In this document: positions 2 to 64,000 of the stretch, piece by piece | How positions within the stretch are numbered: position 1 is the first letter of the stretch | How the letters are laid out: the number at the start of each line of letters is the position of its first letter | The notes under the pieces: generated by a model | What the model saw: the letters and a program-made list of their open reading frames with translations, nothing else | Database searches by the model: none | Told to the model about the DNA's origin: nothing | Source of the DNA: Antarcticibacterium sp. 1MA-6-2 | Lineage (GTDB): Bacteria; Bacteroidota; Bacteroidia; Flavobacteriales; Flavobacteriaceae | Assembly: GCF_021535135.1 (NCBI RefSeq) | Contig: NZ_CP091036.1 | Span: 3,596,001-3,660,000, forward strand | DNA length: 64,000 bases | Reading direction: 5' to 3' | Program-made: the position numbers and the translations under genes

Positions 2-1541
2 CATGAATATAGTTTCGGACCTAAAATAGCACCAGATGGTTCCTTCTTTGTAACAGGTAATGTTGCTTTTGGGGATGAAGAATGGTGGAGAGGAGAGAGT
101 CGTGTGCCATGGAGAGGGTGGACGATGAAGATTAGCGAAGATGGTAAAATGGAACCATGGGCTACAGGTATGAGATCTCCTGCAGGTCTTGGAATGATTG
201 ATGGAGAATTTTTCTACGCTGAAAATCAGGGAGACTGGATGGGATCCGGTGGTGTGTGGAAAGTAGATAAAGGAACTTTTACCGGGCATCCTGCAGGTTT
301 GCGCTGGTCTAATAAACCCGGTTCTCCAGTAAATATCACTACAGAACAATTGTATGCCCAGGTTGACCCAATGCAGGAAAAGAATGAGAATGGAAGATAT
401 ATCAAACCAGAAAATTCTCAAAATACAGACTTCGTAAGTTTGTACGAGTTAAAAGATGAATTTCCACAACTTAAAACTCCTGTGGTATGGTTGCCTCACG
501 GAATTCTGGGAATTTCTAATTCTGAAATTCTAAAGATACCTGAAGGAAATTTTGGTCCTTTTGAAGGTCAATTGCTGGTAGGTGATCAGGGAATGAGTAT
601 GATCATGAGAGTTTTCATGGAGGAGATCAATGGAGTTCACCAGGGAGCTGCATTTGCTTTCCGAAGTGGTTTCCAGTCGGGAGTACTGCGATTGGCCTGG
701 GCAAAGGACGGTTCTCTTTTTGTAGGTGAGACTAACCGTGGATGGGGATCTGCTTAGTGAGGCTAACCAGGGTTTACAGCGCCTGGTGTGGAATAAAAAA
801 CTTCCTTTTGAAATGAAGGCCGTTCGGGCAATGCCTGATGGATTTGAAATAGAATTCACTATGCTAGTAGATCGCAAAACGGCAGAGGATCCGGCTTCCT
901 ATTTTGTAAATAGCTTTATATATAAATATTATGCTGTTTATGGAAGTCCCCCGGTTAATCTTGAAGAAAATGAAATCCAGGGTGTAAAGGTTTCAGAAGA
1001 CGGAATGAAGGTGCGGATAGTAGTTGATAATCTTAGAGAGAATTTCGTTCATAACATTTCCCTTTTTGGAGTTAGGGCTAAAGAAAATTCTTATTCGTTA
1101 GTTCATCCTACTGCCTACTATACTTTAAATGTTATTCCAGATGGAGAGAAATTAAAGCTGGCTGACTTGAAAAAGACAAGTAGTGCAAAAGAAACTACGA
1201 CAGCGGCAAAAGCAAAAGCAGAAACTGCAAAATCAACTAAAACCACTGTAGCTACCTCAAAGCAGCAGGTGCCAGATTTTGAAACTATACAGCCAATTCT
1301 TCAGCGGAATACTTGTTTTGCCTGTCATGCTGTGGATAAAAAGCAAATTGGTCCTTCTTATATGGAAGTTGCCAAACGAAACTATAGCAATGAAAGGATC
1401 CTGGAGCTTATTCATAATCCGGAACCTCAGAACTGGCCCGATTATCCTGTTGCAATGCCTCCAATGCCTCAGGTCTCTAAAGAAGACGGTTTAAAAATAG
1501 CAGCCTATATAAACTCTTTGAATGATAAATCGAAGAAGTAA
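2..1541 (+). CDS. Beta-propeller dehydrogenase-like protein with C-terminal cytochrome c domain (5' end outside window)
   Basis: The frame is open from base 2, so the start lies upstream. The first ~250 residues read like a glucose/sorbosone-dehydrogenase-type propeller (TNRGWGS, the LPHGILGISNSE stretch). A beta-sandwich-like segment follows, then an Ala/Lys/Thr-rich linker at about 1180-1265, then a cytochrome c domain with a CFACH haem motif near 1315 and a distal Met in a PPMP context near 1460. Families of this build are exported redox proteins; the substrate is unknown. The frame breaks at 752-758 (GCTTAGT). Restoring GCCGGT there gives the family motif GWGSAGE and one frame of 513 codons. 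GCTAGT at 863-868 gives Leu-Val where Pro-Val (GCCGGT) is expected, probably an in-frame scar of the same kind. The gene ends in a terminator at 1564. Confidence 0.8.
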
Positions 1542-1563
1542 CAGGTAAAAAAAATATCCTGAG

Positions 1564-1595
1564 ATGCCATTCCATGATTACGGAATGGCATTTTT
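1564..1595 (+). terminator. Rho-independent terminator
   Basis: A perfect 10-bp stem (ATGCCATTCC / GGAATGGCAT) has an 8-base loop and runs into five Ts. It lies 22 bases after the stop of the cytochrome c protein and separates it from the next gene. Confidence 0.85.
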
Positions 1596-1632
1596 AGGAT
1601 TAAGGTAAAATTCAAAATAGAGTGTATTTTTT

Positions 1633-2028
1633 ATGAAGGTTTCCCGTATCTTTTTTGCGATATGGAGCTTATTATTTCTTCTCTTCGCTTATTGGCAATG
1701 GAACGATCCTGATCCCGAAGTTTGGGTGAGTATCTACTTCTTCAGTGCACTAATGTGCGTACTTGCAGCCTTTGAACGGTTTTATCTACCGCTCCTAATA
1801 GTGGTAGCCATAGCAGCATTTTTTGGAGGGATATACCTATTTCCTTCTTCTGTGAGAGATTGGGTTCTTCAGGAGTGGCAACAGGCAGATCTTTCTATGA
1901 AAACTCCCGATATGGAAGTTGCCCGGGAGTCTTTTGGGCTATTTATAGTTTCGTTAATTATAGGCCTGGCAGCATTAAATGGATGGTTCATAAAACGTTC
2001 TAAAAACCTAGCCCGGTTAAAGTCATAA
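1633..2028 (+). CDS. TMEM220-type small membrane protein
   Basis: A 131-residue integral membrane protein with about four hydrophobic segments (near residues 5-20, 33-48, 52-72 and 103-122). It carries the YWQWNDPDPEVW motif after the first helix, the hallmark of the transmembrane protein 220 family, whose function is unknown. The ATG start puts the first helix at the N terminus. The gene sits alone between a terminator and the ebo operon promoter and has no frame damage. Confidence 0.8.
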   Translation: MKVSRIFFAIWSLLFLLFAYWQWNDPDPEVWVSIYFFSALMCVLAAFERFYLPLLIVVAIAAFFGGIYLFPSSVRDWVLQEWQQADLSMKTPDMEVARESFGLFIVSLIIGLAALNGWFIKRSKNLARLKS

Positions 2029-2106
2029 ATTCGGCGGAAAGACTATCTTTTTAAGTTGCCTGCATTACTTTTGTTGATTCAGTTAAAACATGAAAATCCC
2101 GGTAGT

Positions 2107-2136
2107 TTTGCTGTGTTAACCTATGTTTTATCTTTA
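2107..2136 (+). promoter_or_regulatory. Bacteroidota-type promoter of the ebo operon
   Basis: TTTG at 2107-2110, an 18-base spacer and TATCTTTA at 2129-2136. This matches the Flavobacterium/Bacteroides consensus TTTG-N17-19-TAnnTTTG except for the last base. The -7 box ends 29 bases before the eboA ATG. It is a pattern match only. Confidence 0.5.
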
Positions 2137-2165: not shown

Positions 2166-3068
2166 ATGACCGCTCAGGTAGATTTTTCGCAGGCTTCCAG
2201 GTTTCTGAAAAATATTATTGAAAAAAATTCCAATGTAAAGGAGTTGGAATGGGTAAACCTAAGCAGGAGGATAAACTTCAGAATAATTTTGAATTGCGTT
2301 CTTTTTACCTTGCTTTCAGTTCTGCCTCTCGTTTTATCAGGAAAAGTAATCTTGATAGTGCTGAGGAGATTTTAGCCCGTGCAGATAGTATTCGCAAAGG
2401 GTTCCAACCTCAATCCTGGAATTTACTGCAATGTGTGCGTACCTATTTCCTTTTAATGCTTCCACAAGAAGATGCTGAAGCCTACGAACATAATCTTACC
2501 AAACTTCACGAAACGGCAGATGTTGAGGAACAGGTAACTTTATATGCGGCATTACCACTTCTTCCATATCCTTCAATTAATTCAAAACGTGCGGCGGAGG
2601 GAATAAGAACAAATATTACCGATGTTTTTGATGCCATTGCTCTGGACAATCCTTATCCTGCCGATTTTCTTAATGAGCTAAGCCTGGAATCAAATGGTTT
2701 TAAAAGCTGTTTTTATGCAACGACCTTTGTACCGTATTTATCGTGCAGATGAACGTGCAAATCCTGAATTAGCTGCAATGCTTATAGACTTTGCCCATGA
2801 ACGGTGGGCAGCAAACAGAAAAGTTTTACCGGAACTATGGCGTTTTGTAGGTCCGTTTTTAAATTCTGAAAGGTTTAATGATATTGAAAAAGTAGTTAAA
2901 GGAGAAGATCTTGAAAAAAGAGCAGGTTTACTGGCCTGTTCTCAAAATGAGCTTCCTGAGGCAAAACAGTTACTTGATCAGTTTCCTGATGTAAAGAATA
3001 GCATACATACCGGGGAATTGAACTGGACTTTAGTGGGTGAGGAATACCGGACCGAACTTTCTAAGTAA
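2166..3068 (+). CDS. eboA: EboA domain-containing protein
   Basis: First gene of the ebo operon. EboA proteins have no known biochemical activity. Family features are the central stretch reading AWNQMVLKAVFM after repair, followed by PLYRIYRADERANPELA and a DFAHERW motif. The frame is broken twice, at 2257-2264 (ACCTAAGC) and 2677-2683 (GCTAAGC). Restoring ACCGGC and GCCGGC gives VNRQED and NEPAWNQ and a single frame of 299 residues. Identification rests on the protein pattern and on the complete eboA-F order behind it. The ebo cluster is known from cyanobacteria, where it takes part in moving a scytonemin precursor to the periplasm, and from Bacteroidota and some proteobacteria. Confidence 0.85.
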
Positions 3069-3169
3069 TGAATTAGGTGCTTAAAAGGATGAGCCTAAAG
3101 AGAAAGAAATAATATTTTCAGAAAAAATAAATCTGCTACGCTTTCTGTAGCTTTTAAAAAAAGAATAGA

Positions 3170-4083
3170 ATGTATATAGATCCACATATTCACGTAAGCT
3201 CACGTACAACCGATGATTACGAGGCTATGCAAAAGGTAGGTATTAAAGCTATTATAGAACCTGCATTTTGGCTGGGCCAGCCCCGTACAAAAGTAGGAAG
3301 TTTTCAGGATTACTTTAATAGCCTTGTAGGTTGGGAACGTTTCCGGGCGAGCCAGTTTGGAATTAAACACTATTGTACTATCGGCTTAAATTCCAAGGAG
3401 GCAAATAATGAAGCTTTGGCAGAACAGGTAATGGAGTTGTTGCCTTTATACGTTGGAAAAGAGGGAGTAGTTGCAGTGGGGGAAATTGGTTATGATGATC
3501 AAACTAAAGCTGAGGATAAGTACTACCGCCTTCAGCTCGATCTGGCCAAAGAAGTGAATTTGCTTAGGTTATGATCCATACTCCTCACAGGGATAAGAAA
3601 AGAGGGACTACCAAAAGTATGGATGTAAGTGAAGAACATGGGCTTGAGCCTTCTATGGTGATAGTAGATCACAACAATGAGGAGACGGTAAGAGAAGTGT
3701 TAGATAGAGGCTATTGGGCTGCCTTTACTATTTACCCACATACTAAAATGGGTAGTGAAAGAATGGTTGAAATTATAAAACAATATGGGGCAGAGAGAAT
3801 AATTGTGGATAGTGCTGCCGATTGGGGCATTAGTGACCCCCTTGCTGTTCCCAAGACTGCCAAATTAATGGCGGAAAAAGGTATAGGAGAGGATCTTATT
3901 CATCTTGCCTGCTACCAAAATGCTCTTACAGCTTATGGGCAGAGTGGACAGATGAGAGAAAGTGACTGGTTAAATGCAGAACCTATAGATCAACGCAAAA
4001 AGCTTTCAGGTAATACCGTGTTACGGGGAGGCCAAACCCCAAAAGTAGAAGGTGATACATCTTCAGATTTCGTTGAAAATTAA
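3170..4083 (+). CDS. eboB: TatD-family metal-dependent hydrolase EboB
   Basis: A TIM-barrel amidohydrolase-superfamily protein of the TatD type. The N-terminal metal motif is DPHIHVSSRTTDDY, followed by VGEIGYDDQT, the IHTPHRDKKRGT metal-binding segment, IVDHNNEET and a DSAADWG motif near the C terminus. The frame breaks at 3562-3569 (GCTTAGGT). Restoring GCCGGT turns the break into NLPVMIHTPHRD, the expected family sequence, and yields 303 residues. It is the second ebo gene, about 100 bases after eboA. Its substrate in the ebo pathway is not known. Confidence 0.88.
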
Positions 4084-4107: not shown

Positions 4108-5017
4108 ATGAACTCCTTCCTCGCTCACTTACGGTTGATGCGTCCTGCAAATATTCTAACAGCAATTGCAGATATTTTAGCGGGCTATGCAGTATCTGGT
4201 GCTGCGGTGGAACTTTTTAATTCAGGGGAGGGGAATCCGTTTTTTTATTGAATTCTTTACTGTGGTTAATTTTGGCCACTATAGGATTATATGGTGGAGG
4301 AATTGTTTTTAATGATGTTTTTGATGCTGAACTTGACAAAATAGAAAGACCGGAAAGACCTATTCCCAGCGGAAAAGCCTCGGTGCTAAGCGCCAGTGTC
4401 CTGGGGGCAATATTATTTATTGTGGGCATCATATCAGCCTTTCAGGTATCTTCTCTCAGCGGTTTAATTGCCGTTGTGGTAGCCGTACTAGCTGTTATGT
4501 ATAATTCTTGGGGGAAACATCAAACCTTATTTGGACCTGTGAATATGGGACTGTGCAGGGGGACAAATTTGTTGTTAGGGATGAGTGTCATTCCAGCTGC
4601 TCTTCAGGATCTTTGGTGGATCGCTTTGCTACTCAGTAATCTATATTGCAGCAATTACTATGATAAGTAGGGGAGAAGTTCATGGAGGAAATAGAAAAGC
4701 GATCATTGCAGGATTTTTTATGTACACCATTATAATTGTGGCAATAATTATTCTTGCTTTTACATCTATCATACCCTGGTGGCAGGCGGTGCCATTTGTG
4801 CTTCTTTTCTCATTTCTAATCTTCCGGCCACTTATTAAAGCATTGAAAGAACAGGAGCCTCAATTAATAGGGAAAGCTGTTAAGGCAGGTGTTCTGGCGC
4901 TTATTGTGTTTGATGCTTCACTGGCTACAGTATTTGCTTAGCTGGATATATGGGCTGCTGGTATTATTATTGTTGCCAATTTCCCTGGTTATTGCAAAAA
5001 AATTTTCTGTTACCTGA
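4108..5017 (+). CDS. eboC: UbiA-family prenyltransferase EboC
   Basis: Multi-spanning UbiA-superfamily protein. It starts MNSFLAHLRLMRPANILTA, and the first Asp-rich motif is NDVFDAELDKIERPERPIPSGK; an isoprenoid or aromatic transfer at the inner membrane is inferred from the family. Three breaks are present: one T lost from a T run near 4232-4238, ACTCAGT at 4631-4637 and GCTTAGC at 4936-4942. Restoring T8, ACCGGT and GCCGGC gives LLPVIYIAAITMISRGEV and TVFAGWIYGLL and one frame of 302 residues ending at 5017. The start used lies upstream of the T-run break and includes the first helix and the RPAN motif. Confidence 0.87.
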
Positions 5018-5053: not shown

Positions 5054-6203
5054 ATGAAATCTATTCAGCAGACATTTTCTGTTCCATTTACATACGCTGT
5101 TCACTTTACAGAAGATATATTCAATATAAGCAACCCCATTTTTGCACAGGTGGTTAAAACTTCAAGGGTAGCAAAGGTTTTCTTTGTTATTGATGATGGG
5201 GTAGTAAATACCCACCCTTCCCTAATCAACAATATTAAAAATTATGCTGAGGCTAACACTTAGGTGTTTTTGTGCTGTGCGCAGACCCGCTGGTTATACC
5301 GGGAGGTGAAGGTGTCAAGAATGAGAAAATTTACGTTGAGCAAATTCTGGAGGCCAGTAATACCTACGGTATAGACAGGCATTCTTTTATTGTGGCCATT
5401 GGTGGAGGTGCAGTTCTTGATATGGTAGGTTTTGCAACGGCTATTGCCCACAGGGGGATTAGACATATACGTATCCCAACCACTGTTCTGGCTCAGAATG
5501 ATTCGGGAATAGGAGTAAAGAATAGCGTAAATGCCTATAATAAAAAAAATTTCCTCGGAACATTTGCTCCTCCTTTTTCAGTAATAAATGACAGTACTTT
5601 TTTAAAAACTTTAGACCCGAGGGATTGGTGTGCGGGTATTTCTGAAGCTGTTAAAGTGGCTCTTATAAAAGATGCTTCTTTCTTTGAATGGATAGAAGCC
5701 AACGTTGAAAAACTGGCTAGCAGGGAGATGCCGCCAATGGAGGAATTAATCTATCGCTGTGCACAAATGCATCTTGACCATATTGCAGGTGGAGATCCTT
5801 TTGAATCTGGTTCTTCACGACCCCTTGATTTTGGTCATTGGGCGGCACATAAGTTAGAACAATTAACAAATTATAACCTGCGCCACGGGAAGCTGTTGCT
5901 ATAGGTATATGTTTGGATTCAACTTATTCTTATCTCAAAGGAATGATTTCTGAAGAGGATTTACACAGGATCATTAATTTGTTTCAGAAATTAAATTTTG
6001 CTGTTCATATTCCGGAATTATCCGGAGAAAACCTTCTGAAAGGCCTGGAGGAATTCAGGGAACATCTGGGAGGGCAATTAACTATTATGCTGCTTGATGA
6101 AATAGGAAAGGGAGTGGAGGTTCATCAAATGGACTCCACAGTAATTTCTAATTCAGCAGACAAACTTCAGGAGTTTCAGGAAGAAGGTTTTAAGTTTGCC
6201 TAA
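5054..6203 (+). CDS. eboD: 3-dehydroquinate synthase-like protein EboD
   Basis: Sugar-phosphate-cyclase family (3-dehydroquinate synthase and valiolone synthase relatives). The NAD-binding motif is [15 protein letters not shown], followed by [25 protein letters not shown], a Lys-rich segment and the metal-site [10 protein letters not shown] and LRHGEAVAIG regions. The frame breaks at 5258-5265 (ACTTAGGT; ACCGGT gives [13 protein letters not shown]) and near 5887-5892, where one G of a run is lost (the correction gives HGEAVAIG). The corrected protein has 382 residues. This is the ebo-specific paralogue rather than aroB, judged from its neighbours. Its product in the pathway is unknown. Confidence 0.87.
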
Positions 6204-7438: not shown

Positions 7439-8813
7439 ATGAAGAAAACCGTTGTTTTAAACGTGGTAGCCCTTTCTCCCCGGCTTATAGGGGAGCATAC
7501 ACCTTTCCTCAGGGAATGGTCCCAAAAAGGATCTTTATTAAATGTGAAACCGCTATTGCTTACTGTAACCTGTTCCTCCCAGGCTACTTATTTCACCGTA
7601 AATGGCCGGAAGAGCACGGAGTAGTTGGTAACGGCTGGTGCTTTAAAGATGAGTATGAAATAAAATTTTGGAGGCAGTCAAATAAGCTGGTTCAGGCTCC
7701 GAAGATTTGGGAGGAGTTGAAGAAGCAAGATCCAAATTTTACCTGCGCCAATATGTTCTGGTGGTTCAATATGAATTCTACAGTAGACTACGCAGTTACA
7801 CCCCGACCACTTTATCCCGCCACAGGACTTAAACTACCCGATGTTCATAGCCAGCCCATGGATCTTAGAGAAAAGCTGCAAAATGAGCTGGGGCAGTTTC
7901 CTCTCTTTTCATTCTGGGGACCTAATGCCAACATTAGCTCCACCCGTTGGATAGCTGATGCTTCTATGCTTGTGGATAAATGGCACGATCCAACTCTCAC
8001 CCTTATTTACCTGCCGCACCTCGATTATAATCTGCAAAGAGTAGGTATAGATTTCAATAAGATTGGCAGGGACCTGCAGGAGATCGATAAAGTATGTGAA
8101 GATCTAATTACCTATTACGAAAAACAGGGAGCAGAGGTAGTGATTGTATCAGAATACGGAATAACCGATGTTTCCAATCCAGTACATATTAACAGGATTC
8201 TCAGGAATAATGATTATATAGCTGTAAAAGATGAGCTTGGAAGGGAAACCTTGGACACCTGGGCTAGTAAAGCTTTTGCAGTGGCCGATCATCAATTGGC
8301 CCATGTTTATGTAAGAGACTACCGGGATATTCCTGCCGTAAAGAAGCTTTTAGAAAATACTCCGGGAATAGAACTCGTTCTGGATGAGGAAGGAAAAAAG
8401 AACATCACCTTAATCATGACAGGGCGGGAGATTTGGTAGTAATGGCGAATGAAGATTCCTGGTTCACCTATTACTTTTGGCTGGACGACAAAAAAGCACC
8501 CGATTATGCCCGAACGGTAGACATACATCGTAAACCGGGTTATGACCCTGTAGAAACCATTGCCGATCCGGAAATTAAATTCCTGAAAGGAAAAATTGGA
8601 TGGACGCTCCTAAAGAAAAAACTTGGGTTTAGATATTTAATGGATGTTATTCCCCTGGATGCCACACTGGTGAAGGGGTCTCACGGACGCTTAAGTAAGC
8701 AAACTGAAAACTGGCCATTGTTTATAACTCAAAATAACACTGTCAATAAATCTTCAACTATCGAACCTGTAGATGTTTATGATTTAATACTGTCGCATTT
8801 GAATAGAATATGA
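7439..8813 (+). CDS. eboF: Alkaline-phosphatase-superfamily nucleotide pyrophosphatase/phosphodiesterase EboF
   Basis: Type I phosphodiesterase/nucleotide pyrophosphatase family. The N-terminal CSSQATYFTG nucleophile region is followed by EEHGVVGNGW, LPHLDYNLQRVG, VSEYGITDV and, after repair, the C-terminal metal-site stretch LNHDRAGDLVVMA. The frame breaks at 7595-7599 (ACCGT; restoring ACCGGT gives YFTGKWPEEHG) and in the A run near 8395-8402, where one A appears lost (correction gives KEHHLNHDRAGD). The corrected length is 458 residues. GCTAGT at 8267-8272 gives WASKAF where Gly is also possible. It is the last ebo gene. Confidence 0.87.
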
Positions 8814-11806: not shown

Positions 11807-13109
11807 ATGAAAAATCTTTTTCTATTACTGGTAATGATTTTGAGTATCCAGGCTGGAACAGCTCAGGGTAATTACGTGCCTCACAAAGAAAACCTGGAAG
11901 CCAGGCAATGGTTTGAGGAAGCTAAATTCGGGATGTTTATCCACTGGGGAGTCTACAGTAACCTTGGAGATGGGGAATGGGTTATGAACAACCAGAATAT
12001 AGCAATTGAAAATTATGAAAAGCTTCCTAAATTTTTTAACCCCACAAAATTTGATGCTGAAGAGTGGGTAAAAGTGGCCAAGGATGCCGGGATGAAATAT
12101 ATTACCATAACCTCACGACACCACGATGGATTTTCTATGTTCGACACCAGAGCTTCAGATTATAACATAGTAAATAATACTCCATTTGGAAGGGATATTC
12201 TAAAAGAGCTGGCAGAAGCCTGCAGGAAGGAGGATATTAAATTGTTTTTCTATTACTCCCTGTTGGATTGGCGGCATCCCGATTATTATCCGCAAGGGAA
12301 AACGGGTAAGGAAATCCGGGATAGATCCACAAAAGGCAATTGGGAGGAGTATATAACTTTTATGAAAGCTCAACTCACAGAATTACTTACAAATTATGGT
12401 GAAATAGGTGGAATTTGGTTTGACGGCCATTGGGATAAACCTGAAGCCAACTGGAACTACGACGAAATTTATAAACTTATTCATGATTTACAGCCCCAGG
12501 CCCTCATTGGGAATAATCATCACTCAGCTCCAATAGATGGAGAAGATTTTCAAATGTTTGAGAAAGACCTTCCCGGAAAGAATACAAAAGGATATAGAAA
12601 TGATCCTGCAAGTGTGGGAGCACTCCCTAAGGAAACTTGCGAGACTATCAACAATTCATGGGGTTTTAATTTACAGGACGATACTCATAAATCAGACAAG
12701 CAGTTAATTCGCTATTTGATCCAAACAGCAGGTTATGGGGCGAATTTTCTCCTTAACGTGGGGCCAATGCCTAATGGGGAAATTCAGGAAAACCACAAAC
12801 AAACCTTGAGGAGTATTGGAAGCTGGCTAAATCAATATGGAGACCTTATTTATGGCAGCAAACAGGGACCTATACTTAGCAGATGAACAAATGGTTTCCA
12901 CTCAAAAAAACGGTAAAATCTATCTGCATCTACTGGATGACCAGGAACTGGTTTTTATTAAAAAATTTGATGCAGAAATAGCGTCAGTAAATTTTTATGA
13001 TTCCGGAAGGAAAGCAAAATTAGAAAAGACAAGCTATGGAACTTTTATAAAGGTACCTAAAGCTGAAAGAAATGATATAGCAACAACTTTAGAAATAAAA
13101 TTAAAGTAA
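11807..13109 (+). CDS. GH29 alpha-L-fucosidase, secreted
   Basis: Signal peptide (residues ~1-20, ending AQG), then the GH29 barrel: WFEEAKFGMFIHWGVYS, TSRHHDGFSMFDT and GGIWFDGHWD, with the nucleophile Asp near residue 206. The C terminus is a beta-sandwich domain. Removes terminal L-fucose from glycans. The frame breaks at 12874-12880 (ACTTAGC). Restoring ACCGGC gives GPIPADEQMVS and a 433-residue protein. It is the first hydrolase of the operon, 9 bases after the dehydratase. Confidence 0.92.
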
Positions 13110-13897: not shown

Positions 13898-15688
13898 TGA
13901 AAATAATACTTACTTTATTTTGTTCGCTTTTTTTAGCAACAGCCTACGGTCAAACTTCCCACGAAGAGGCGAAAAAAGCGATTGAGAACCGGGAATTCCC
14001 TGGCTGGTTTCAGGATGCTAAACTGGGGATTTTTGTGCATTGGGGGTTATATTCAGTTCCTGCTTATGGCGGCAAGGAGAGTTATTCTGAATGGTTTCTG
14101 AGGGGCTTACAAATGAAGGACAGTCTTCGCACCAATTTTTTGAAGAACACCTATGGCGAAAATTTTACCTATAACGACCTGGCCCATGAGTTTAAAGCAG
14201 AACTTTTTGATCCGGAAGAATGGGCTGATCTTTTTAAAATGGCGGGGGCAAAATATGTAGTATTGGTGTCCAAACATCACGATGGATATGCCTTATGGCC
14301 AAGTAAATACAACAGGAACTGGAATAGTGCAGACAACAAGTCCAAAAAGGGATATTGTGGGAGAACTTACAGAATCTGTAAGGGGTGCAGGATTAAAAAT
14401 GGGACTGTATTACTCCTTGCCAGAATGGAATCATCCCTTGCACCGCTGGTATGCAGATCCCCATGATAGTATAGGCGAATATGTTGATACCTATATGATC
14501 CCCCAATTTAAAGAACTGGTAAGCACCTATAAACCTTCCTTAATCTTTGCTGATGGGGAATGGTTCAATACTGCAGAGCAATGGCATTCAGCAGAATTAA
14601 TAAACTGGTATTATAATCTGGTGGGAGATGAGGCTATTGTAAACAACCGCTGGGGAAGTGGGCTGGATGTAGGTTTTCTCACCCCTGAATATAGTGCGGG
14701 AATAAAAGAAACTACCAGGCCCTGGGCAGAAGTTAGGGGAATTGGGAGATCCTTCGGCCTTAATAGAAATGAAGATCTGGAAGCCTATGGCACTTCAAAG
14801 GAATTGGTTGAAAAATTTGTGCAAGCGGTTGCCAATGGTGGTGGAATGATCCTCAACGTAGGTCCCGGAGCTGACGGGCAGATCCCATTGATCCAGCAGG
14901 AACGCCTTGTACAGTTAGGGAAGTGGCTTAAGATCAATGGAGAAGCAATTTATGGTACAAAATCTTTTTCTGTAATTGAAGAAGAGAAAGAAGTTCAAAT
15001 ATCAAGAATAGATAACAATATAAACTTTAACTGGGTACGTAATGCACCAATGAAGGGAATTCGGGAGGATGATTTTTCTGTGAAATGGGAAGGATTTCTG
15101 TTTCCTCCCCAAAGCGGGAAGTACATTCTGGAACTGGAAGCTGATGATGAAGCAGTTCTTAAACTGGACGGTAAAACTATTATAAATAACAATTATACAG
15201 CCCCAGACAAAGAGGCTGAGGTTATGAATGCCAATACCAGTAATTCCAACCGGGCAGAGATAAATCTTACGGCAAATAAGCCTTACTACCTGGTGCTGGA
15301 GTACAGGGAAAAGAAGCAAAATGCCATGGTAAAGTTGTCCTGGAGCACAAAGGGAAAAGAAAAGGATATTATTCCACCTTCAGCTTTTTATTTAGATCAA
15401 AATCGAAATGACGCCGGAATTTCAGGAGAATATAATTCTTTGAAAACTCATATGGCGTATACCAGGAATACTAATTCGGTGTTTGCCATAAGCTTTGAAT
15501 GGCCGGAAGAAATTTTGGAGTTAAACATACCAAAACCCCGGGACGGAGCCACAGTTCAAATGCTGGGATTGGAAAGAGATTTAAAATGGTGGTATAAGGA
15601 AGAAAAACTATATATAAACACAGGTGAGATAAAATATGGGGAATTACCTTCCCACGATGCCTGGACATTTAAAATTGAAAATTACTAA
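13897..15688 (+). CDS. GH29 alpha-L-fucosidase with C-terminal PA14-like domain
   Basis: Signal peptide (residues 1-18, AYGQ), then the GH29 barrel: FQDAKLGIFVHWGLYS, VSKHHDGYALW and SLIFADGEW, which holds the probable nucleophile Asp. The C terminus (from ~15020) has a PA14/GLEYA-like pattern (FSVKWEGFLFPPQSGKYIL, LEADDEAVLKLDG), a likely carbohydrate-binding module. The frame breaks at 14333-14341. Restoring ACCGGT there gives NSADTGPKRDIVGEL, matching the conserved GPKRD of GH29, and a protein of 596 residues. Confidence 0.9.
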
Positions 15689-15699
15689 TTTCTATAAAA

Positions 15700-16557
15700 A
15701 TGAAAATAATAAGATTTGGTGAGGCGGGAAAAGAAAAACCTGGAGTACAACTGGCAAATGGAAAGCGTCTTGACGTTTCTGGCTTTGAGTCAGATTATAC
15801 CGAAGATTTTTTTGCTAATGATGGAATTTCAAAACTAAATACCTGGCTCAGCTCAAATGAAGAAAATTGCGAGGAAATTGGGGAAAATGTAAGGCTTGGT
15901 TCTCCTATTGCACGTCCTTCAAAAATTGTTTGTGTAGGTCTAAATTATGCCAAACATGCTGCTGAAAGTGGGATGGATGTCCCTAAAGAACCTATTCTTT
16001 TTTTTAAAGCAACCAGTGCCATTGTTGGGCCTAATGACGATTTGATCATTCCCCGCGGAAGTAAGAAAACAGATTGGGAAGTGGAGTTGGGTGTAGTGAT
16101 TGGTAAGAAAACCTCCTATGTAGATGAAGCAGAAGCTATGGATTATGTTGTAGGGTATGTTCTACATAATGACTACAGTGAAAGAGAATTCCAGATAGAG
16201 AGATCGGGGCAATGGGTGAAGGGAAAAAGCTGTGACACTTTCGCACCCCTCGGTCCTTTTTTGGCAACTAAAGATGAAATAAAGGATCCACATAATTTAG
16301 ATTTATGGCTAAAATTAAATGGAGAGATTAAGCAGCAAAGTAATACTTCAGATTTTGTTTTTAATATTCCCCAATTAGTAAGCTATATAAGTCAATTTAT
16401 GACCCTTTTACCAGGCGACATAATATCAACAGGAACCCCTTTTGGGGTTGGGATGGGACTTAACCCACAACGTTACCTAAAACCGGGAGATCTAGTAGAA
16501 CTGGGTATTGATGGACTGGGAACATCCAAACAAACAGCAAGAGCTTATAAAAAATAA
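15700..16557 (+). CDS. Fumarylacetoacetate hydrolase family protein, probable 2,4-diketo-3-deoxy-L-fuconate hydrolase
   Basis: Intact, 285 residues. FAH-fold motifs: KIVCVGLNYAKHAAESG, DWEVELGVVIGKK (metal-binding Glu residues), GYVLHNDYSEREFQ, KSCDTFAPLGPFL and GDIISTGTPFGVG. In the non-phosphorylating fucose route this family cleaves the 2,4-diketo acid to pyruvate and L-lactate. The lactate oxidation genes at the end of the operon support that assignment. The stop is immediately followed by the next ATG. Confidence 0.87.
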   Translation: MKIIRFGEAGKEKPGVQLANGKRLDVSGFESDYTEDFFANDGISKLNTWLSSNEENCEEIGENVRLGSPIARPSKIVCVGLNYAKHAAESGMDVPKEPILFFKATSAIVGPNDDLIIPRGSKKTDWEVELGVVIGKKTSYVDEAEAMDYVVGYVLHNDYSEREFQIERSGQWVKGKSCDTFAPLGPFLATKDEIKDPHNLDLWLKLNGEIKQQSNTSDFVFNIPQLVSYISQFMTLLPGDIISTGTPFGVGMGLNPQRYLKPGDLVELGIDGLGTSKQTARAYKK

Positions 16558-19762: not shown

Positions 19763-19800
19763 CCAATAGTTAATCAATAGATTACCTAAAAACTTTATTT

Positions 19801-36926: not shown

Positions 36927-36930
36927 AACT

Positions 36931-39193: not shown

Positions 39194-39340
39194 TTCCCGC
39201 TCTCTGCTGTAAGTATTTAGACCGCATGTTGTTCAGCTATTGCCTGCTGTTGTTCGTCGAAAATGGTGTTTATACTTAACACTATTATAACAATTGATTT
39301 ATATTTACCCTCATTCACAATTAAAATAAATTATAAAAAC

Positions 39341-42300: not shown

Positions 42301-42750
42301 GGTGATGGAATTATTCCCGAAGGAGTTTTTCAATCAGGACAAACAGTTACTACACCAAATGGTGCTGTCGTTGAGGTTGGAGGAATGACATATCAGGAAG
42401 CATTTGATCAGGGCTATGTTGAGCCTACACACGCTGGTTATTATCACTATTTTTCTAATTCCTGGGGGGGTGGTGTTGTAAATGATGACTGGTTTACTGA
42501 ACTTACTTATGTTTCTTTGAGAAATATCTCTATAGGATACACTTTCCCAAGAAGCATCAGTGAAAAATTAAATGCCCGCAACCTGTACATTGGTGTTAAT
42601 GGGAGAAATTTAGCTTATTTATATAATTCAATGCCTAATAATATTAATCCTGAAAGCTTCAGGGGTACAACGAGTTCTGACTCTTTTAGGGAAAGATCTT
42701 TTACACCGTATCAGGCTAGTTATACAATGACAGTATCGTTAGATTTTTAA
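39341..42750 (+). CDS. SusC/RagA-family TonB-dependent outer-membrane transporter
   Basis: Signal peptide (to FAQ near residue 23), a carboxypeptidase-like regulatory domain (VSGTITDAQSGMPLPGVTVVEKGTNNGTASDIDGNYSI), a plug (GVSSLNSSNNQPIFVIDGVILDN, ILKGAAATALYGSRGINGVILI), then a ~880-residue barrel ending in ASYTMTVSLDF. The frame breaks at 40094-40099 (GCTAGA). Restoring GCCGGT before ATG gives KSGAGMRGLGVNIS and 1136 residues. It imports oligosaccharides with the SusD that follows. The ATG at 39341 is chosen because the signal peptide starts there. Confidence 0.92.
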
Positions 42751-53747: not shown

Positions 53748-56129
53748 TTATCTTATTTCGGAATTGCTGGTTGAACTCATGTAAAATTTTAATTCCCCAC
53801 CTTTTAAAATTTCCTCGTGCTGTATAAATGGTTTTTCCAGTTTCCTTCCGTTCAATTCTACTTTTTCAACAAAAACATTTTCTTCGCTCTGGTTTTCCGC
53901 AATAATCTTGAATTTCTTTCCATTCTCCAGATTAATAAGGCCTTCATTAACTGCAGGGCTTCCCAGAGCATATTCCACACTTCCGGGAGCAACCGGATAA
54001 AAACCTAAAGAACTAAAAATGTACCAGGCACTCATTTGCCCAAAATCATCATTACCTCCCAACCCGTCTGCACTCGGTTTGATATTGATCTTTTAATATC
54101 ATTCTTATTTTATCCTGAGCTTTCCAGGGAGTATTGGTCCAATTGTATAAATATGCGACGTGATGGGAGGGCTCATTTCCATGAACATAATTTCCAATAA
54201 TGCCTTCCCGCGAAATATCTTCGGTATTTGCAAAATATTTATCCGGAAGATCCATAGTAAATAACGAATCGAGGTGTTGTGAGAATTTTTCTTTACCACC
54301 CATCAATTCCATCATTTCAGCCGGAGCGTGAGGTACATATAAACTATAGTTCCAGGCATTTCCTTCAATGAATCCCTGGCCGTGAGTGTCCAGCGCATCA
54401 AATTCCTTCTTAAAGCTACCATCACTCAATTTAGGCCTCATAAATCCCGATTTTGAATCATAGACATTTCGGTAGTTTTCAGAACGCTTTATAAACTCCT
54501 TATAGATATCTTCCCTACCTAATTTTTTGGCAGCCTGTGCTATCGCCCAGTCATCATAAGCATACTCTAAAGTTTTTGAGACCGAAGCTCCATTTTTATC
54601 CTCAGGCACATATCCCATATCCATATAATACTGAAGGCCATCGTAATAGCCCGTTTTTGCTGTTTGCACCATGGCTTCTAAAGCCTTTTCCTGATCAAAA
54701 TCGGCGTTACCTTTTACAATAGCATCTGCAATAACAGATACGCTGTGGTAGCCTATCATACACCAGTTTTCATTGGCATAATGGGACCACACCGGAAGCA
54801 TAGTATGCACGCTTTGATCATAATGGGCCATCATGGACTCTACCATGTGAGCATTTCTTTTTGGCTGTAGTACATTGAAAAGAGGATGCAATGCGCGATA
54901 GGTATCCCACAGGGAGAAACTTGTATAATTTGTGAAACCTTCAGCCTTATGAATTCCCTGGTCAATCCCGCGGTATTGTCCATCTGTATCCATATATTCC
55001 GTAGGACCTAAAAAGGCGTGGTACATAGCGGTGTAGAAGTTCACCATATCCTCACGTTTATCTGTTTTAACAATAACTTTGTTAAGTTCTTTATTCCATT
55101 TGTCCCGTGCTTCTTTCTTTACCTGTTCAAAGTTCCAGTGAGGAATTTCTTTTTTCATATTTTCTAAAGCACCTTCAGCACTTACAGGAGATATTGCAAG
55201 TTTCACCTTTACCTTATCATTCACCTTCGTGTCAAAATCAAAATACATTCTAATTTTTTCTCCTGCTATTTCAGGGAAGTTACGGGATTGATCAAATTTC
55301 CTCCAGAAACCACCATACACCTGTTGGTCATATCTCTCCCGGCCGTAATTTTTAATGGGTTTGTCAAATGAAAGAGCAAAATATACTTTTCTGGTTCTGG
55401 CCCAGCCATTGGTTTGGCGGTATCCTGTCACTAAAGTATCGTTTTCTACCCTTACAAAAGTCCATACATTTTTATCATCATAATTATAAATTCCCGCTAC
55501 AAGGTCCAGGATTATGTGAGAAGTTCCGGCTTCCGGAAAAGTATACTGGTGCATCCCAACACGGCTGCTTGCCGTCAATTCTGCTTTGATGTTATAGTCT
55601 TTTAAGAGGACGCTGTAATAGCCGGGTTCCGCAGTTTCCTCCTTATGGGAGAACCTGGATCGATAGCCGCTGTCAGGATTAGTTTCAGTTCCGGGATTAA
55701 GTTTTAAATCTCCGGTAGTAGGCATAATTAAAAAATCCCCAAGATCGGAATGTCCTGTTCCGCTAAAGTGGGTATGGCTAAATCCCACAATGGTTTCATC
55801 ATCGTATTGATATCCTGCACAATATTTATAAACATCAGGATTGTATTTTCCATCTACGGCGTAAGGAATAGTATCGGTATCAGGACTTAACTGTACGCTT
55901 CCAAAAGGCACTGTCGCTCCGGGATAGGTGTGTCCCATTTTTGCAGTTCCTATGAAGGGATCTACATATTGAGCAAGGTCCTCCAGATTTTCTAATTCTA
56001 CATTATCTCCTTCTTTGGCAACAGATTTTTCGCAGCTTGTGAAGAAGGGTAATACAACAGCACAAATGCTTAAGTATAGAAGATCTTTTGAAGGGAGAGA
56101 GATTTATTTTTCAATGGGTGCAGTATCAT
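53748..56129 (-). CDS. GH92 alpha-mannosidase, lipoprotein
   Basis: GH92 signatures: YVDPFIGTAKMGHTYPGATVPFG, GFSHTHFSGTGHSDLGDFLI, NYTSFSLWDTYRALHPLFNVLQP and GNDDFGQMSAWYIFSSLGFYPVAPGS. Two breaks: ACTCGGT at 54072-54078 (plus strand; ACCGGT gives QTGADGLGGNDD) and GCTTAAGT at 56068-56075 (plus strand; minus-strand ACCGGC gives FYTGICAVVLPFF). The second matters because the short frame starting at 55938 lacks a signal. Repair moves the start to the ATG at 56129 and adds a lipoprotein signal ending FFTSC. The corrected length is 792 residues. It removes alpha-linked mannose and is convergent with the asparaginase gene. Confidence 0.88.
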
Positions 56130-57488: not shown

Positions 57489-60400
57489 ATGAAAAAACTA
57501 TTACATGCCTTCTTGAAGAAGAGTCTTTTTCTGGTTCCTGTTTTTATGTGTTTTCTTGGAACACAACAATCATTTTCGCAGGACCAAATTGAAGTTACTG
57601 GAAATGTTACGGGTGAGGACGATTTACCGCTCCCGGGTGTTACGGTAATGGTGAAGGGTACAACCAATGGCGTTGTTACAGATTTTGATGGAAATTACAG
57701 CATAAATGCACCGGACAATTCTACCTTGGTTTTTACTTATGTAGGTTTTGCATCAAGAGAGGTTGCTGTTGATGGAGTACCGTGTAATTAATGTTGTATT
57801 AAGAGAAGACGTTTCGGCACTTGATGAAGTGGTAGTAACAGGATATGGAACTCAGGAGAAACGATCTATAACAGGCGCAATTTCCACAGTGACAAGTGAA
57901 GACCTGGAAAGGGTGCACGGTGGTGCTACGGTAAGTTCTGGTCTCGCTGGAAAACTATCGGGAGTTAACTTCCGGATGAATGATGGACGCCCAGGTGCAG
58001 GTGCGAGTATCCAGATAAGAAATATGGGAACTCCTCTATATGTTATAGATGGAATCCAGCAAGATGAAGGCCAATTCAACAACCTTGCTCCGGGAGATAT
58101 AGAAAGTCTCACCATACTTAAGGACGCCTCAGCTGCTATATATGGTGTGAGAGCGGCAAATGGAGTTGTGGTTGTTACAACTAAACGAGGAAAAAGAAAT
58201 ACTAAGAGCACGGTTACTATTAACGCTTATACAGGTTGGCAAAATTGGTCTAGATTTCCTGAGCCCGTAACTAATTCTTATGATTATGTGAGGCTACAGG
58301 CAGAAGCTGAGGTCAACCAGTTTGGATCAACAAATATAACTCAGGATGAACTTGAGAGATATAGAGTTGGAACAGAGGAAGGATATAAGTCCTTTAACTG
58401 GAAAGATTTTATTATTAAGAAGAATGCCCCGCTAACCAGTGTGCAGGTGAGCGCTTCCGGTGGTTCTGAGAATATAAATTACTATTTATCTGCTACAGAT
58501 TTGTCTCAGGAATCAGTATTAGGTGATGAATTTAGATTTGATAGGAGCAATATCCAAAGTAATGTGAATGCAAGCATTACAGATCGCTTACAGGTTGGTG
58601 TTCAAATTAATGGAAGAATTGAAACAAGGGAAAATCCGGGAATACCAGGGTTTGATGATTATTGGTTACCACGATTTGCAATCTTAAGGAACCGACCTTA
58701 CGAGCGGCCATATGCCAATGATAATCCGGAATATCTAAACGATATTGGTCATAACGAAACCAACTGGGCATTACATAATTTCGAAATAGGAGGATACAAA
58801 CTTGATACCTGGAGAGTACTTCAAAACAACTTTACTGCAGAATATGATATTCCTTATATTGAAGGGCTTGAAATAAGCGGTATGTACTCTTATTATATTG
58901 CAGATCATGTAATGGATGGGCATGAATATACCTATGAGGCTTATACTTATGATCCAGAGAGTGAAACTTATAACGTAACTGGTGGTAGTACTAACCCATG
59001 GAGAGAGCGCGAACAAAATAAAGTTATTCGTAATATATACCAGGGACAGCTACAATATAAGAGAGACTTTGGTGACCACGCCGTAGACGCTATGTTTATC
59101 GTAGAGCGGCAGGAAGCAAAATATACCCGAAATTGGGTTCATGCTGTACCGCAAACCAATACTTTACCGCTTATTTATTTTTCTGATGTGGATACTTATG
59201 ATGATAGTGAAAGTGAAGAAGCTAGAATAGGGTACATTGCAAGAATCAGTTATAATTTCAGAGATAAATATTACCTGGAACTTTCCGGAAGAAGAGATGC
59301 ATCCTGGAAATTTCATCCTGATAAAAGGGTAGGGTACTTCCCTTCTGCATCAGCAGGTTGGAGAATTACTGAAGAACCTTTTATGGAGAATCTTTTGGGG
59401 TCAGATAGTTTTCTTAATGATTTGAAAATAAGAGGATCTTATGGAGTGTTGGGAGATGATGATATTGGTATTGGAGCATTTGATTATAGAGTAGGATATA
59501 ACTACAACCAGGGGGTAGCTATTTTAGATGGTGTTCCAGTTATAGCAAGTAGGGATCGGGGTCAGCCTATTACCAATATTACATGGTTTAAAAGTAAGAT
59601 TACAGACATAGGTTTAGATGCTTATTTCTTTGACAACAAGCTCTCTGCAACTTTTGATTACTTCTACAGGTTGCGTACAGGATTAAGGGGTAGAAAATAC
59701 GATATTCTTCTTCCAAACGAATTAGGATATGGACTACCAGATGAGAATGTGAATAGTGATGCTTCTTTTGGAGTTGAAGGAGCAATAGGGTACAATGATA
59801 AAATTGGAGAAGTAACATTTAACGTTTCTGCAAATGCTTCCCTGGCCCGAAATAAATTTATTTCCTCGTATAAGCCGCGATTTAACAATTCCTGGGACCA
59901 ATACAGGAACTCCAGTGAAGACCTTATCAAAATATTTTCTGGGGGTACACTGCACTTGGGCAGTTCCAGTCTCAGGAAGAAATTGATAATTACCCGGTCA
60001 ATATTGACGGAAGAGGAAATGAAAGTCTTCTTCCCGGAGATATTATTTATGAAGACGTTAATGATGATGGAAGAATAGATGGATATGATCAGCGGCCAAT
60101 TGGTTTTAATAACTACAGTCCTCGGGTAAACATGGGATTGAGTATTTACGTTGCTTACAAAGGTTTTGACTTTTCGGCAGATTTTTCAGGAGCATCAGGA
60201 TATTCTTATAACCAGGAGTGGGAAACCAGAATACCTTTCCAAAATGGTGGAGCTTTAAATGAAATATTTTTAGATAGGTGGCATCGAGCAGATCCTTTTG
60301 ATCCAGATAGTGAATGGATACCCGGCAAATATCCTGCTTTACGTTACAATAATAGTGGGCACAGTAACTACAATAAAAATTCGACTTTCTGGTTGCATAA

Positions 60401-60626: not shown

Positions 60627-60637
60627 ATTTAGAAAAA

Positions 60638-62528
60638 ATGAAAAAGCACGTAATAGTATTTTTAATAATGGCAATTATTGCCGTGGGTTGTACCTCAGAT
60701 CAGGAATTCCTGGACAGAGAACCCACAAATATCCTAACAGAGGATCAAATTTTTAGTGATCCTGAATTGCCCGTATCCATTTTGGCAGATTTGTATAATC
60801 GTTATCATGACTTCGGCAGCGTGGAACAGTGGTGGACCCTGGCAGATTTTAATCAGGCGTTCTACTCAAATCAGGGAGATTACTGGCGTTTTCAAAATCC
60901 AGAGCGGGGCTATGGAGACTGGGGTACCTGGGATTATGGCTATATAAGACATATGAACCTTTTTATTGAAAGGCTTGAAGCTTCAGAAGCACTGGACGAA
61001 GAAGATAGGAATGCTTTAATAGCAGAGACCAGGTTTCTTCGGGCTTCTTATTACTTCACACTGGTTAAACGAATGGGGGGTGTACCTCTTATAACTGAAT
61101 CCCTGACTTACGATTTTAGCGGCGATCCTACATACCTGCAAACTCCACGTTCAACTGAAGCTGAAATATATGATTTTGTTATCCAGGAGGCAGAAGAAAT
61201 TAAAGACATGTTGCCTGCTAATGCAAACAGGAAATCACGAGCTACAAAAGGGGCCGTTCTTGCAATGCAAAGTCGGGCCGCTTTATACGCTTAGTTCAAT
61301 TGCAAAGTATGGGAGTGGAACTCCCCAGGTTTCTCTTCCGGGTGGAGAAGTGGGTATTCCGGCTTCCAGAGCAGATGGATATTATCAAACCGCCCTTGAT
61401 GCAGCACAGGCTATTATTAACGGCGAAGCGGGAGCTTATTCACTTTATATGAAAAAACCAGAGCTTTCTGAAAATTTCGCGAGTATTTTCTACGATAAAT
61501 CTAACAATCCGGAAGCCATTTTTGTAGAAGATTATATGTTGCAAAGTGGAAAAGTGCATGGCTTTACTATTGCCAATCAGCCAAGGTATGGTGCAGAAGA
61601 GGAAGAGGGAGGGAGAATTAATCCATCTTTAAATCTTGTTCAGTCCTTTGAAACTATTGAAGGTGAATGTAAACCTTTACCTATAAAAGATGCCTCTGGA
61701 AATTTTATAGAATATGAGGAACCAGAGGACCTTTTTGCAGGTAGGGATGCCCGTTTACAGGGAACTGTAATAGTACCAGGCTCAACTTTCAAAGGTAGAG
61801 AAGTGGATATAATGGCCGGGATACTGCTTCCTGGTGGAGAAATCGTTTCAGGGGATGCCCGGGGTCAACAAAAAGAATTTCCAGGTTCAAACGGGCAGGA
61901 AAAGGTTGTAGGTTTTGATGGACCTGTAGATGGTCTGGAACATACTGCCCAAACTAAGTTTTACCTCAGAAAATATTTAGATCCAAAAGCGGGGTCTGGA
62001 CAACGTGGCGTTCAAAGTGACGTGTGGTTTATCAGGTATCGTTATGCAGAAGTATTATTAAACGCAGCTGAAGCAGCCTTTGAATTGGGTCAAACAGGTA
62101 TTGCTGCAGATTATATGAACCAGGTACGTTCCAGAGCAGGAATTATTACCGAACTTACTCCGGGAGACATTAATTTTGACAGAATTGCCCATGAGAGATA
62201 CGTAGAGTTTGCCTTTGAAGGTCTTTATTTCTTTGATCTAAAAAGATGGAGATTAGCCCATACTGTTCTGGATGGAACCGCTATGTCTGAAGGTGATGTG
62301 GTTGAAGATGTTTGTGATCCAACAGATAAAAATACTCAACCTTATGGTCTATGGCCATACAAAATTTACAATCCTGGGAGTGAAGATCATGAAGATTGGG
62401 TTTATGATATTGTCCTTCCCTCAAGAGTAACAGGAGCCTACCGTTTTAGGTTAGGAAATTATTATTCCGAAATAGGGCAGGATATTCTCAACAACAATCC
62501 GTTGATAGTAAGAAATCCAAATCAATAA
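60638..62528 (+). CDS. SusD/RagB-family glycan-binding lipoprotein (second PUL)
   Basis: Lipobox IAVGCTSD near residue 15, then the classic SusD pattern: FLDREPTNILTEDQIFSDPE, EDRNALIAETRFLRASYYFTLVKRMGGVPLITE, STEAEIYDFVIQEAEEI, and the C-terminal RYRYAEVLLNAAEAAFELGQ and RIAHERYVEFAFEGLYFFDLKRW. The frame breaks at 61289-61295 (GCTTAGT). GCCGGT restores RAALYAGSIAKYGSG and 629 residues. It partners the SusC 11 bases upstream. Confidence 0.92.
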
Positions 62529-62548
62529 CAGAAACAAAAAGTAAACTT

Positions 62549-63223
62549 ATGAAAACTATATATTTTATTTTATTTCTTGGAGTCATCCTGTCACTGGGAT
62601 CCTGTGAAATTGATAATTATGACGAACCGGATGCATTATTTTCCGGTCAGCTTACATATCAGGGTGAGCCTGTAAGGGTTGCAGCAGATGAGGTGAGATT
62701 TCAGCTTTGGCAAACTGGATTTGGGAATGAAGGTCCTTTAGATGTTCATGTTGCGCAGGATGGATCATTTAGTGCAGTTCTTTTTAGTGGAGAATACCTG
62801 CTGAGTCTTCTAAGTGGAGAAGGTCCATTCCAGGCAAACACTGGTGAGGAACAGATAATTATTAATGGGAATACAACTATGGATATCGAGGTAACTCCCT
62901 ATTATATGATCAGCAATGCAGCCTATAATGTTTCAGGAAATGTAGTTGAAGGATCTGCAAGTTTAAATCAAATCATTACAGGAGAAGGTGGAAGAAATGT
63001 TGAGCGGGTAACACTTTACCTTAACGACGCACAATTCGTTTCAGAAAATAGTGATGAAAATATTGCGGGAGGTGATGCAAACCTGGAAGATTTAAGTAAC
63101 CTTATGATGAGCGTTGAAATTCCAGGCGACTATGACAGGAACTATATTTTCGCCCGAATTGGAGTGAAAATAGAAGGAGTTGAAGATATGTTATTTTCTC
63201 CTGTCCAAAAATTAACTTTGTAG
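62549..63223 (+). CDS. DUF3823 SusE/F-like surface lipoprotein
   Basis: Intact, 224 residues. Lipoprotein signal with Cys near residue 19 (LSLGSCEID). DUF3823 pattern: DEPDALFSGQLTYQGEPV, VRFQLWQTGFG, VHVAQDGSFSAVLFSGEYLL, then an Ig-like second half (YNVSGNVVEGSASLNQI, VERVTLYLNDAQFVSEN). Found after susCD pairs in Bacteroidota loci, likely a surface glycan-binding accessory. It starts 20 bases after SusD. Confidence 0.85.
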   Translation: MKTIYFILFLGVILSLGSCEIDNYDEPDALFSGQLTYQGEPVRVAADEVRFQLWQTGFGNEGPLDVHVAQDGSFSAVLFSGEYLLSLLSGEGPFQANTGEEQIIINGNTTMDIEVTPYYMISNAAYNVSGNVVEGSASLNQIITGEGGRNVERVTLYLNDAQFVSENSDENIAGGDANLEDLSNLMMSVEIPGDYDRNYIFARIGVKIEGVEDMLFSPVQKLTL

Positions 63224-63248
63224 CAAGTACCCAAATATTAATCCCCTT

Positions 63249-63322
63249 AGAAGGAGTACGGTAAAATTGTTAGATAGAATTTCTAAGAAAATCTACAGAA
63301 CAAAATTATGTGTACTCCTTCT
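63249..63322. repeat. Inverted repeat between DUF3823 and GH2 genes
   Basis: An 11-bp perfect inverted repeat, AGAAGGAGTAC at 63249-63259 and GTACTCCTTCT at 63312-63322, enclosing 52 bases. It could form a long-loop hairpin or be a paired protein-binding site upstream of the GH2 gene. It is not followed by a T run, so it is not an ordinary terminator. Confidence 0.5.
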
Positions 63323-63340
63323 TAAATAAAGAATTTAAAA

Positions 63341-64000
63341 ATGTTTAAAAAGAGAAATAATCAATTCTTAATTATTGTATTGCTGTTAATATTCCTATCA
63401 CCTGCTCTGCAAGCTCAATGGAAACCAGCTGGAGATAAGCTTAAGACCACCTGGGGTGAAAATCTGGATCCCAACAATGTTCTTCCGGAATACCCCCGGC
63501 CAATTATGGAGCGAAACGATTGGCAAAACCTGAATGGACTTTGGGATTATAAAATAACAAAACGAGGAGAGCCACGGCCAACCCAGATGGATGGAAAAAT
63601 TCTGGTTCCTTTTGCGGTTGAATCCAGTCTTTCCGGAGTAATGAAAACCGTGGGTACTGATCAGGAACTTTGGTACAATACCAGCTTTAATGTGCCAAAA
63701 TCGTGGAGAAATAAGAGCATTATGCTCAATTTTGGAGCTGTAGACTGGCGAGCTGATGTTTGGATTAATGACATCAAAATTGGTTCTCACGAAGGTGGTT
63801 TTGATCCTTTTTCTTTTGATATTTCACCTTTCCTTGTAAGTGGGCAATCTCAGAAACTAACTGTTAAAGTATGGGATCCTTCTAATGACGGACCTCAACC
63901 TAGAGGAAAGCAGGTAAAAAATCCTGAAGGAATTTGGTACACACCTGTTACAGGTATTTGGCAAACAGTTTGGCTGGAGCTAAGTAAATAAGAAGAAAAT
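63341..64000 (+). CDS. GH2-family glycoside hydrolase, N-terminal part (continues beyond window)
   Basis: Signal peptide (to LQAQ), then the GH2 sugar-binding domain: [80 protein letters not shown] and [17 protein letters not shown]. An apparent stop follows at 63989-63991, but GCTAAGT at 63979-63985 is the recurrent scar of GCCGGT. With GCCGGT the frame reads WLEPVNKKK, as in intact GH2 proteins, and stays open to the window edge. The ~217-residue frame is therefore not a truncated enzyme. The specificity (galactosidase, mannosidase, glucuronidase) needs the missing barrel. Confidence 0.85.

Follow-up and report, generated by a model that had tools for sequence, protein, structure and literature searches.

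The DNA analysed here is a window of 64,000 nucleotides from Antarcticibacterium sp. 1MA-6-2 (positions 3,596,001–3,660,000 of the 4,383,004-base single-contig genome), in which the hexamer RCCGGY is absent and short, recurrent strings, here called scars, coincide with breaks in reading frames. Two parts of the window (14282–21808 and 34938–42750) show polysaccharide-utilisation content, with two alpha-L-fucosidase genes, glycoside hydrolase genes of families GH20 and GH92, and SusC genes. A sequence-only reading of the window had listed 35 scar sites, five of them as either "less regular" (three) or "in-frame" (two); each of the remaining 30 regular strings (30/30) was found at its position and on its strand, and 18 more strings of these forms occur in the window outside that list. 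All positions below are those of the window, on the forward strand unless given as minus.

The Pfam domains of the GH20, GH92, SusC, and SusD genes are divided among open reading frames (ORFs) at or near the listed sites. In the GH20 gene, profile positions 1–100 and 102–273 of PF00728 lie in separate ORFs at the scar GCTTAGC (35423–35429), a candidate irregular site (35934–35942) falls at the break between profile positions 273 and 306, and the domain picks up at 306 in ORF 36003–36926, next to the scar GCTAGGT (35986–35992). The N-domain and the catalytic domain of the GH92 gene are in separate ORFs, with a candidate irregular site at 37598–37606. One SusC/RagA gene has its plug and barrel in separate ORFs (scar GCTAGA, 40094–40099); a second has its N-terminal domain in ORF 57489–57791 and its plug in ORF 57748–60078 (scar ACCGTGT, 57779–57785). 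The SusD gene is divided into SusD-like_3 and SusD_RagB in the same manner (scar GCTTAGT, 61289–61295). Among the alpha-L-fucosidase genes, one has a candidate irregular site at 14333–14341 in ORF 14282–15688, which starts at profile position 135 of PF01120, and the other is represented by an ORF with positions 57–247 of the 345 in PF01120 that stops at 20535, within the scar GCTTAGC (20530–20536); the next ORF runs from 20528.

Several other scars also lie where ORFs end or meet. ORFs 104–757 and 726–1541 meet at GCTTAGT (752–758), and ORFs 2249–2752 and 2694–3068 overlap just 3' of GCTAAGC (2677–2683). An ORF that covers the N-terminal half of PF01026 (TatD) stops at 3574, shortly after GCTTAGGT (3562–3569). 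GCTTAGC (4936–4942) and GCTTAAGT (29819–29826) mark the ends of ORFs 4585–4941 and 29387–29824, respectively, and three further ORFs stop just after a scar: 11807–12886 after ACTTAGC (12874–12880), 30219–30605 after ACTAGTTT (30587–30594), and 63341–63991 after GCTAAGT (63979–63985). The other regular strings present are ACCTAAGC (2257–2264), ACTCAGT (4631–4637), ACTTAGGT (5258–5265), the short form ACCGT (7595–7599), GCTAAGT (17209–17215 and 17254–17260), ACTTAAGC (17500–17507 and, on the minus strand, 56068–56075), ACTAAGC (18084–18090), ACCTAGGT (21799–21806), GCTTAGC (30022–30028), GCTTAGT (30230–30236), GCTAGA (31032–31037), GCTTAGGT (34822–34829), ACTCTAGT (37014–37021), and ACCGAGT (54072–54078, minus strand). 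The two candidate in-frame sites of the earlier list, GCTAGT at 863–868 and a string at 45926–45934, were likewise seen.

The loss of RCCGGY extends across the genome. The window holds 72 YCCGGR, 58 RCCGGR, and 40 YCCGGY but 0 RCCGGY. In 464 kb of the chromosome (the window and 20 stretches of 20 kb each), 5 RCCGGY stand against 442 YCCGGR. Among the 6-mers with an expectation above 20 in this sample, the four most depleted are GCCGGC, ACCGGC, GCCGGT, and ACCGGT, with observed-to-expected ratios of 0, 0.05, 0.05, and 0.06; the next stands at 0.46, and the other NCCGGN words are frequent (147–286 each, both strands counted). The corresponding counts of RCCGGY and YCCGGR in five other genomes are 423/504 (sample of G003), 152/223 (G002), 64/67 (G173), 90/165 (G577), and 179/269 (G474). 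With their ratios as the expectation, 241–422 RCCGGY sites should be present in the 464 kb, so that the 5 that are left correspond to a loss of 97.9–98.8%. These five (L105:15392, L111:7340, L111:11170, L117:19861, and L121:7977) may lack methylation or lie in contexts that were called correctly.

The same depletion is evident in a count of GCCGGC, with the reversed pattern as control, in 46 distinct genomes. The whole genome (4.38 Mb) has 1 GCCGGC and 199 control strings, whereas 12 relatives from the genus have 91–739 GCCGGC. Low numbers are present also in more distant genomes (5 in G219, 7 in G014, and 8 in G019), but there the control is low too (15–22); the ratio of GCCGGC to control is lowest in the genome of strain 1MA-6-2, followed by G219 (5 vs 22). 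By its proteins, the window appears to belong to the Flavobacteriaceae: in the 80 loci kept, Sinomicrobium oceani gave the closest match to a window protein (72%), and most of the others came from Flavobacterium. When 20 kb of the window served as a DNA query, genus relatives gave few matches, and samples of relatives were therefore used for further comparison. Where RCCGGY sites of the relatives G002, G003, and G005 could be aligned with good flanks, 0 of 37 were kept in strain 1MA-6-2, a figure that includes some differences by plain divergence and counts ribosomal RNA (rRNA) sites repeatedly; of their other sites, 30 of 58 YCCGGR and at least 32 of 77 RCCGGR/YCCGGY were kept. The sequence-only reading, which had placed a scar at every RCCGGY site, was right about the motif, but "every" was too strong: the loss amounts to about 98%. 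The regular strings that it listed are real, and the phenomenon is genome-wide rather than local.

The decisive evidence comes from the three 16S rRNA operons of the genome, which differ from each other in how they read at RCCGGY. At a site in the V1 region, the compared copies of G002, G003, and G005 have ACCGGC, and the three operons of strain 1MA-6-2 have ACTAAGC, ACTAAGC, and ACTGAC. At a second site, which is GCCGGT in G003 and in one copy of G002 (the aligned copies of G002 and G005 have GCCAGT), the three operons read GCTTAGGT, GCTAAGGT, and GCAGGT. Elsewhere in the gene, only two other alignment columns differ among the three copies. An untranslated, conserved gene whose copies are garbled in different ways excludes translational recoding and leaves real mutation as a very unlikely cause. 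By contrast, the 23S rRNA was rejected as a test site: neither its three copies in this genome nor those of G003 contain RCCGGY, and the GCTTAGT and CTAG strings in it occur naturally, GCTTAGT being common to the relatives. Row L091, misoriented in that alignment, was left out. Not every such string is therefore a scar.

The frame shifts agree in detail with the lengths of the scars. A comparison of proteins of relatives (samples of G002 and G003, and locus L002) with the six-frame translation of the 464-kb sample revealed 30 frame junctions, of which 3 were antisense readings of rRNA and were left out. A regular scar is present at 16 of the remaining 27, and in 16 of 16 cases the frame shift equals the length of the scar minus six. 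Ten of the relatives' proteins at the junctions were named. Among the genes, tamL and rlmD are cut at regular scars, and accD, an essential gene, and an FtsK-like gene (below the cut-off of its model) are cut at irregular ones. The assembled sequence is thus contradicted, if indirectly, by a conserved RNA, by housekeeping genes, and by its own rRNA copies.

Together, these results indicate that the scars are very probably consensus errors of this one assembly, caused by a modification at RCCGGY, and not the DNA of the organism; in the living cell, the genes with scars at RCCGGY are probably intact. Most likely, 5-methylcytosine (m5C) was misread on a native long-read platform. A type II cassette would methylate RCCGGY on both strands, probably at the first cytosine, and native DNA would then have been read by a modification-sensing platform, most likely nanopore, with a basecaller untrained on this context. 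Since the site is palindromic, the reads of both strands would be wrong at the same central bases, so that polishing could not restore it and would write one of several garbled forms, commonly of 7 or 8 bases. In silico, genes with such forms would be frameshifted and appear split. Errors of this kind should occur at a single short motif throughout the genome, which is what was observed, 3 of the 27 junctions being unlike it. The artefact with a matching methyltransferase that the sequence-only reading had envisaged thus gains support from the loss of sites, the 16S copies, the frame shifts, and the recognition region of the candidate enzyme.

The genome encodes exactly one C5-cytosine methyltransferase (one match to PF00145). 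It lies in a cassette at about 3,943,900–3,947,500 of contig C1, together with an integrase-like gene, vsr, and a gene for a protein of 359 amino acids (aa); PADLOC assigned the methyltransferase (394 aa) to MTase_II (7e-161) and the 359-aa protein to REase_II (7e-132). In a plasmid collection, 518 records matched the methyltransferase, the best four being from Nostoc HK-01 (53%), Moraxella osloensis (51%), Rhizobium (48%), and Geobacillus CPW16 plasmid pBsrF30 (40%). The homologs of Nostoc, Moraxella, and pBsrF30, which presumably encodes BsrFI (as its name suggests), adjoin endonucleases of the Cfr10I/Bse634I type (R^CCGGY), with PF07832 in 3 of 3. In the recognition region of 132 residues, the enzyme of strain 1MA-6-2 shares 45–68 identical positions with these three homologs and 66–81 with four closer orthologs, as opposed to 17–23 with six other C5 methyltransferases. 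The search for an enzyme of RCCGGY specificity thus returned a single C5-cytosine methyltransferase whose recognition region resembles those of Cfr10I/BsrFI-type systems, which suggests, by this homology and by elimination, that its specificity is RCCGGY and that the genome encodes the modification enzyme for the missing motif.

The modified base is most likely m5C, by analogy with related systems, as indicated by the PF00145 family, the nearby vsr gene, and two precedents. Selected passages of the literature report that RCCGGY carries m5C in a strain called CPW16, where 3,050 of 8,133 sites were detected, assign RCCGGY to M.AvaIX of Anabaena (PMC8112702), and describe methylation of the first C of RCCGGY by VchM of Vibrio cholerae (PMC6555945, PMC4654547).

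The 359-aa protein (C1, about 3943900–3945000; L001:381–1460, minus strand) has homologs at L184, L213–L215, L240, L241, and L268, the last being the one new locus of a further scan. It adjoins the same type of methyltransferase at 8 of 8 loci checked, a count that is biased because the methyltransferase itself led to some of these loci; 155 plasmid records that match weakly and in part are not among them. No similarity to three Cfr10I/Bse634I endonucleases was detectable, though the methyltransferases are related, which makes the protein a candidate for a second kind of RCCGGY endonuclease. The predicted structure of its homolog from L214 (mean predicted local distance difference test score, 52.6) was too poor for a fold search. 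An R-(D/E)R motif has been named for CCGG-family enzymes (PMC4652773); a search for R[DE]R was uninformative, the motif being absent from the 359-aa protein and also from all three Cfr10I-type proteins. Since the methyltransferase–endonuclease pair is found on four IMG/VR contigs (L213, L214, L215, and L268; in L215 with a vsr gene after the pair), the cassette is probably mobile.

A related possibility is that the mark at RCCGGY is a cytosine modification unfamiliar to basecallers instead of plain m5C, with the 359-aa enzyme as an independently evolved RCCGGY endonuclease, the scars as the accidental footprint of that modification, and the intact sites as unmodified ones; we consider this combination unlikely. 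It is likewise rather improbable that the artefact is the same and the mark is something like N4-methylcytosine or a further-modified cytosine, or that the enzyme belongs to neither PF00145 nor PF01555. The corruption is indeed unusually complete, and the enzyme search covered only these two families, but the sole C5 methyltransferase has a recognition region of the RCCGGY type and a vsr gene nearby, and PF01555 had no match in the genome, while controls for it rang in 11 of 14 genomes.

It is very unlikely that RCCGGY was rewritten by a defective model for polishing or correction, in the absence of any modification. The recurrence of the forms would fit such a fault, as would a completeness lower than in 8 of 12 and a contamination higher than in 11 of 12 genus relatives, values that show only that gene calls are damaged; however, a tool would have no reason to choose the predicted target of the sole C5 methyltransferase.

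Even less probable is that the scars are real DNA, left by a self-targeting endonuclease with error-prone repair throughout the genome or by a mutator that converted the sites. The changes are limited to one restriction-site motif in a strain with a restriction-modification cassette, as this explanation would require, but they strike accD and the 16S rRNA genes, and at the same sites the three 16S copies disagree with one another. Moreover, among the 7 of 395 Bacteroidota genomes with a match to the methyltransferase at E ≤ 1e-50 (strain 1MA-6-2 included), the three closest other carriers (G173, G577, and G474; 63–66%) also have the 359-aa partner (76–80%), and their RCCGGY counts are normal (64 in 200 kb, 90 in 160 kb, and 179 in 240 kb, respectively), as are those of GCCGGC, which argues that the scars do not belong to the biology of the cassette. 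Self-restriction scars were rejected, as was programmed frameshifting at the strings of 7–8 bases. The latter, which a recurring CTTAG-like string with frame jumps of +1 or +2 might suggest, has a negligible probability, because the same changes affect untranslated 16S rRNA, occur on both strands and in differing forms, and leave the loss of RCCGGY unexplained.

Several observations weigh against modification-mediated consensus error at RCCGGY. A regular scar is missing at 11 of the 27 junctions; by eye, 8 of these resemble irregular versions, and 3 (an A-run in thrS, L110:13653, and position 10919 of the window) do not. Regular forms cover only a portion of the losses: compared with relatives, they are in excess by about 30 per 100 kb, and the expected loss of RCCGGY is 52–91 per 100 kb, so that many sites must read otherwise, some with substitutions and no indel, like the third 16S copy. 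With forms so varied, the term "recurrent scar" in the sequence-only reading was too strong. The methyltransferase has a REase_II-type protein next to it in place of an endonuclease of the Cfr10I/Bse634I family, and since that partner lies outside the family, the specificity has to be read from the methyltransferase alone; PF07832 had no match in 21 genomes, this one included, though no control rang in that search. Within 3 kb of the unannotated place in the third-ranked plasmid match (Rhizobium, 48%), neither a Cfr10I-type nor a 359-aa match was found. Finally, the modification errors in selected passages of the literature are mostly mismatches or indels at single positions, and the near-total loss of a motif, often with one or two extra bases, is severe by that standard.

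GCTTAGY occurs 426 times on the forward strand of the genome, and the reversed control pattern 139 times. Other properties of the strings and of the assembly were less telling. When scar k-mers were ranked by enrichment over a Markov background, no clear leaders emerged, and the comparison with relatives was more informative. In thrS (L122:3023–3029, minus strand), the frame breaks at an A-run that bears no RCCGGY scar; the break resembles an ordinary indel in a homopolymer. The lengths of homopolymers show no clear difference from those of relatives and are therefore uninformative on the platform.

The consequences extend beyond the window. The assembly represents its species in a reference set and, by extrapolation, contains about 2,300–4,000 garbled sites, which break genes and alter the 16S sequence, so that annotation, pan-genome analyses, and pseudogene counts based on it are unreliable. 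At the same time, the case suggests a way to read a methylation motif and its enzyme from a finished assembly, independently of raw data, by the missing palindrome and the scars that replace it. The cassette may also hold a new type of endonuclease for the classic recognition site RCCGGY.

Errors at modifications on which a basecaller was not trained have been described for nanopore sequencing (PMC10687267). In native data of Neisseria, methylated sites held 154 of 208 mismatches, and 77 of 103 indels lay on such a site or directly beside it; PCR-based libraries removed all of these errors and retained a single homopolymer indel (PMC12506013). With N6-methyladenine, the miscalled base is the neighbor of the modified one (PMC12016153), in agreement with damage at the central bases of RCCGGY. 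As in the present assembly, the errors in selected passages of these reports cluster at modified sites or motifs and are strain-specific, and those of native Neisseria include m5C-linked indels. The assembly of strain 1MA-6-2 differs from the published cases in that its consensus has lost nearly all sites of a motif, with the result that genes break. No scar of this kind is described in the titles, abstract beginnings, and selected passages of the papers listed in searches on RCCGGY and on nanopore errors. Where BsrFI-type systems such as that of CPW16 have a Cfr10I/Bse634I partner, the cassette of strain 1MA-6-2 has the dissimilar 359-aa putative endonuclease; what it has in common with RCCGGY m5C systems is a methyltransferase of PF00145, with a target-recognition region of the same kind as in the enzymes of pBsrF30, Nostoc, and Moraxella.

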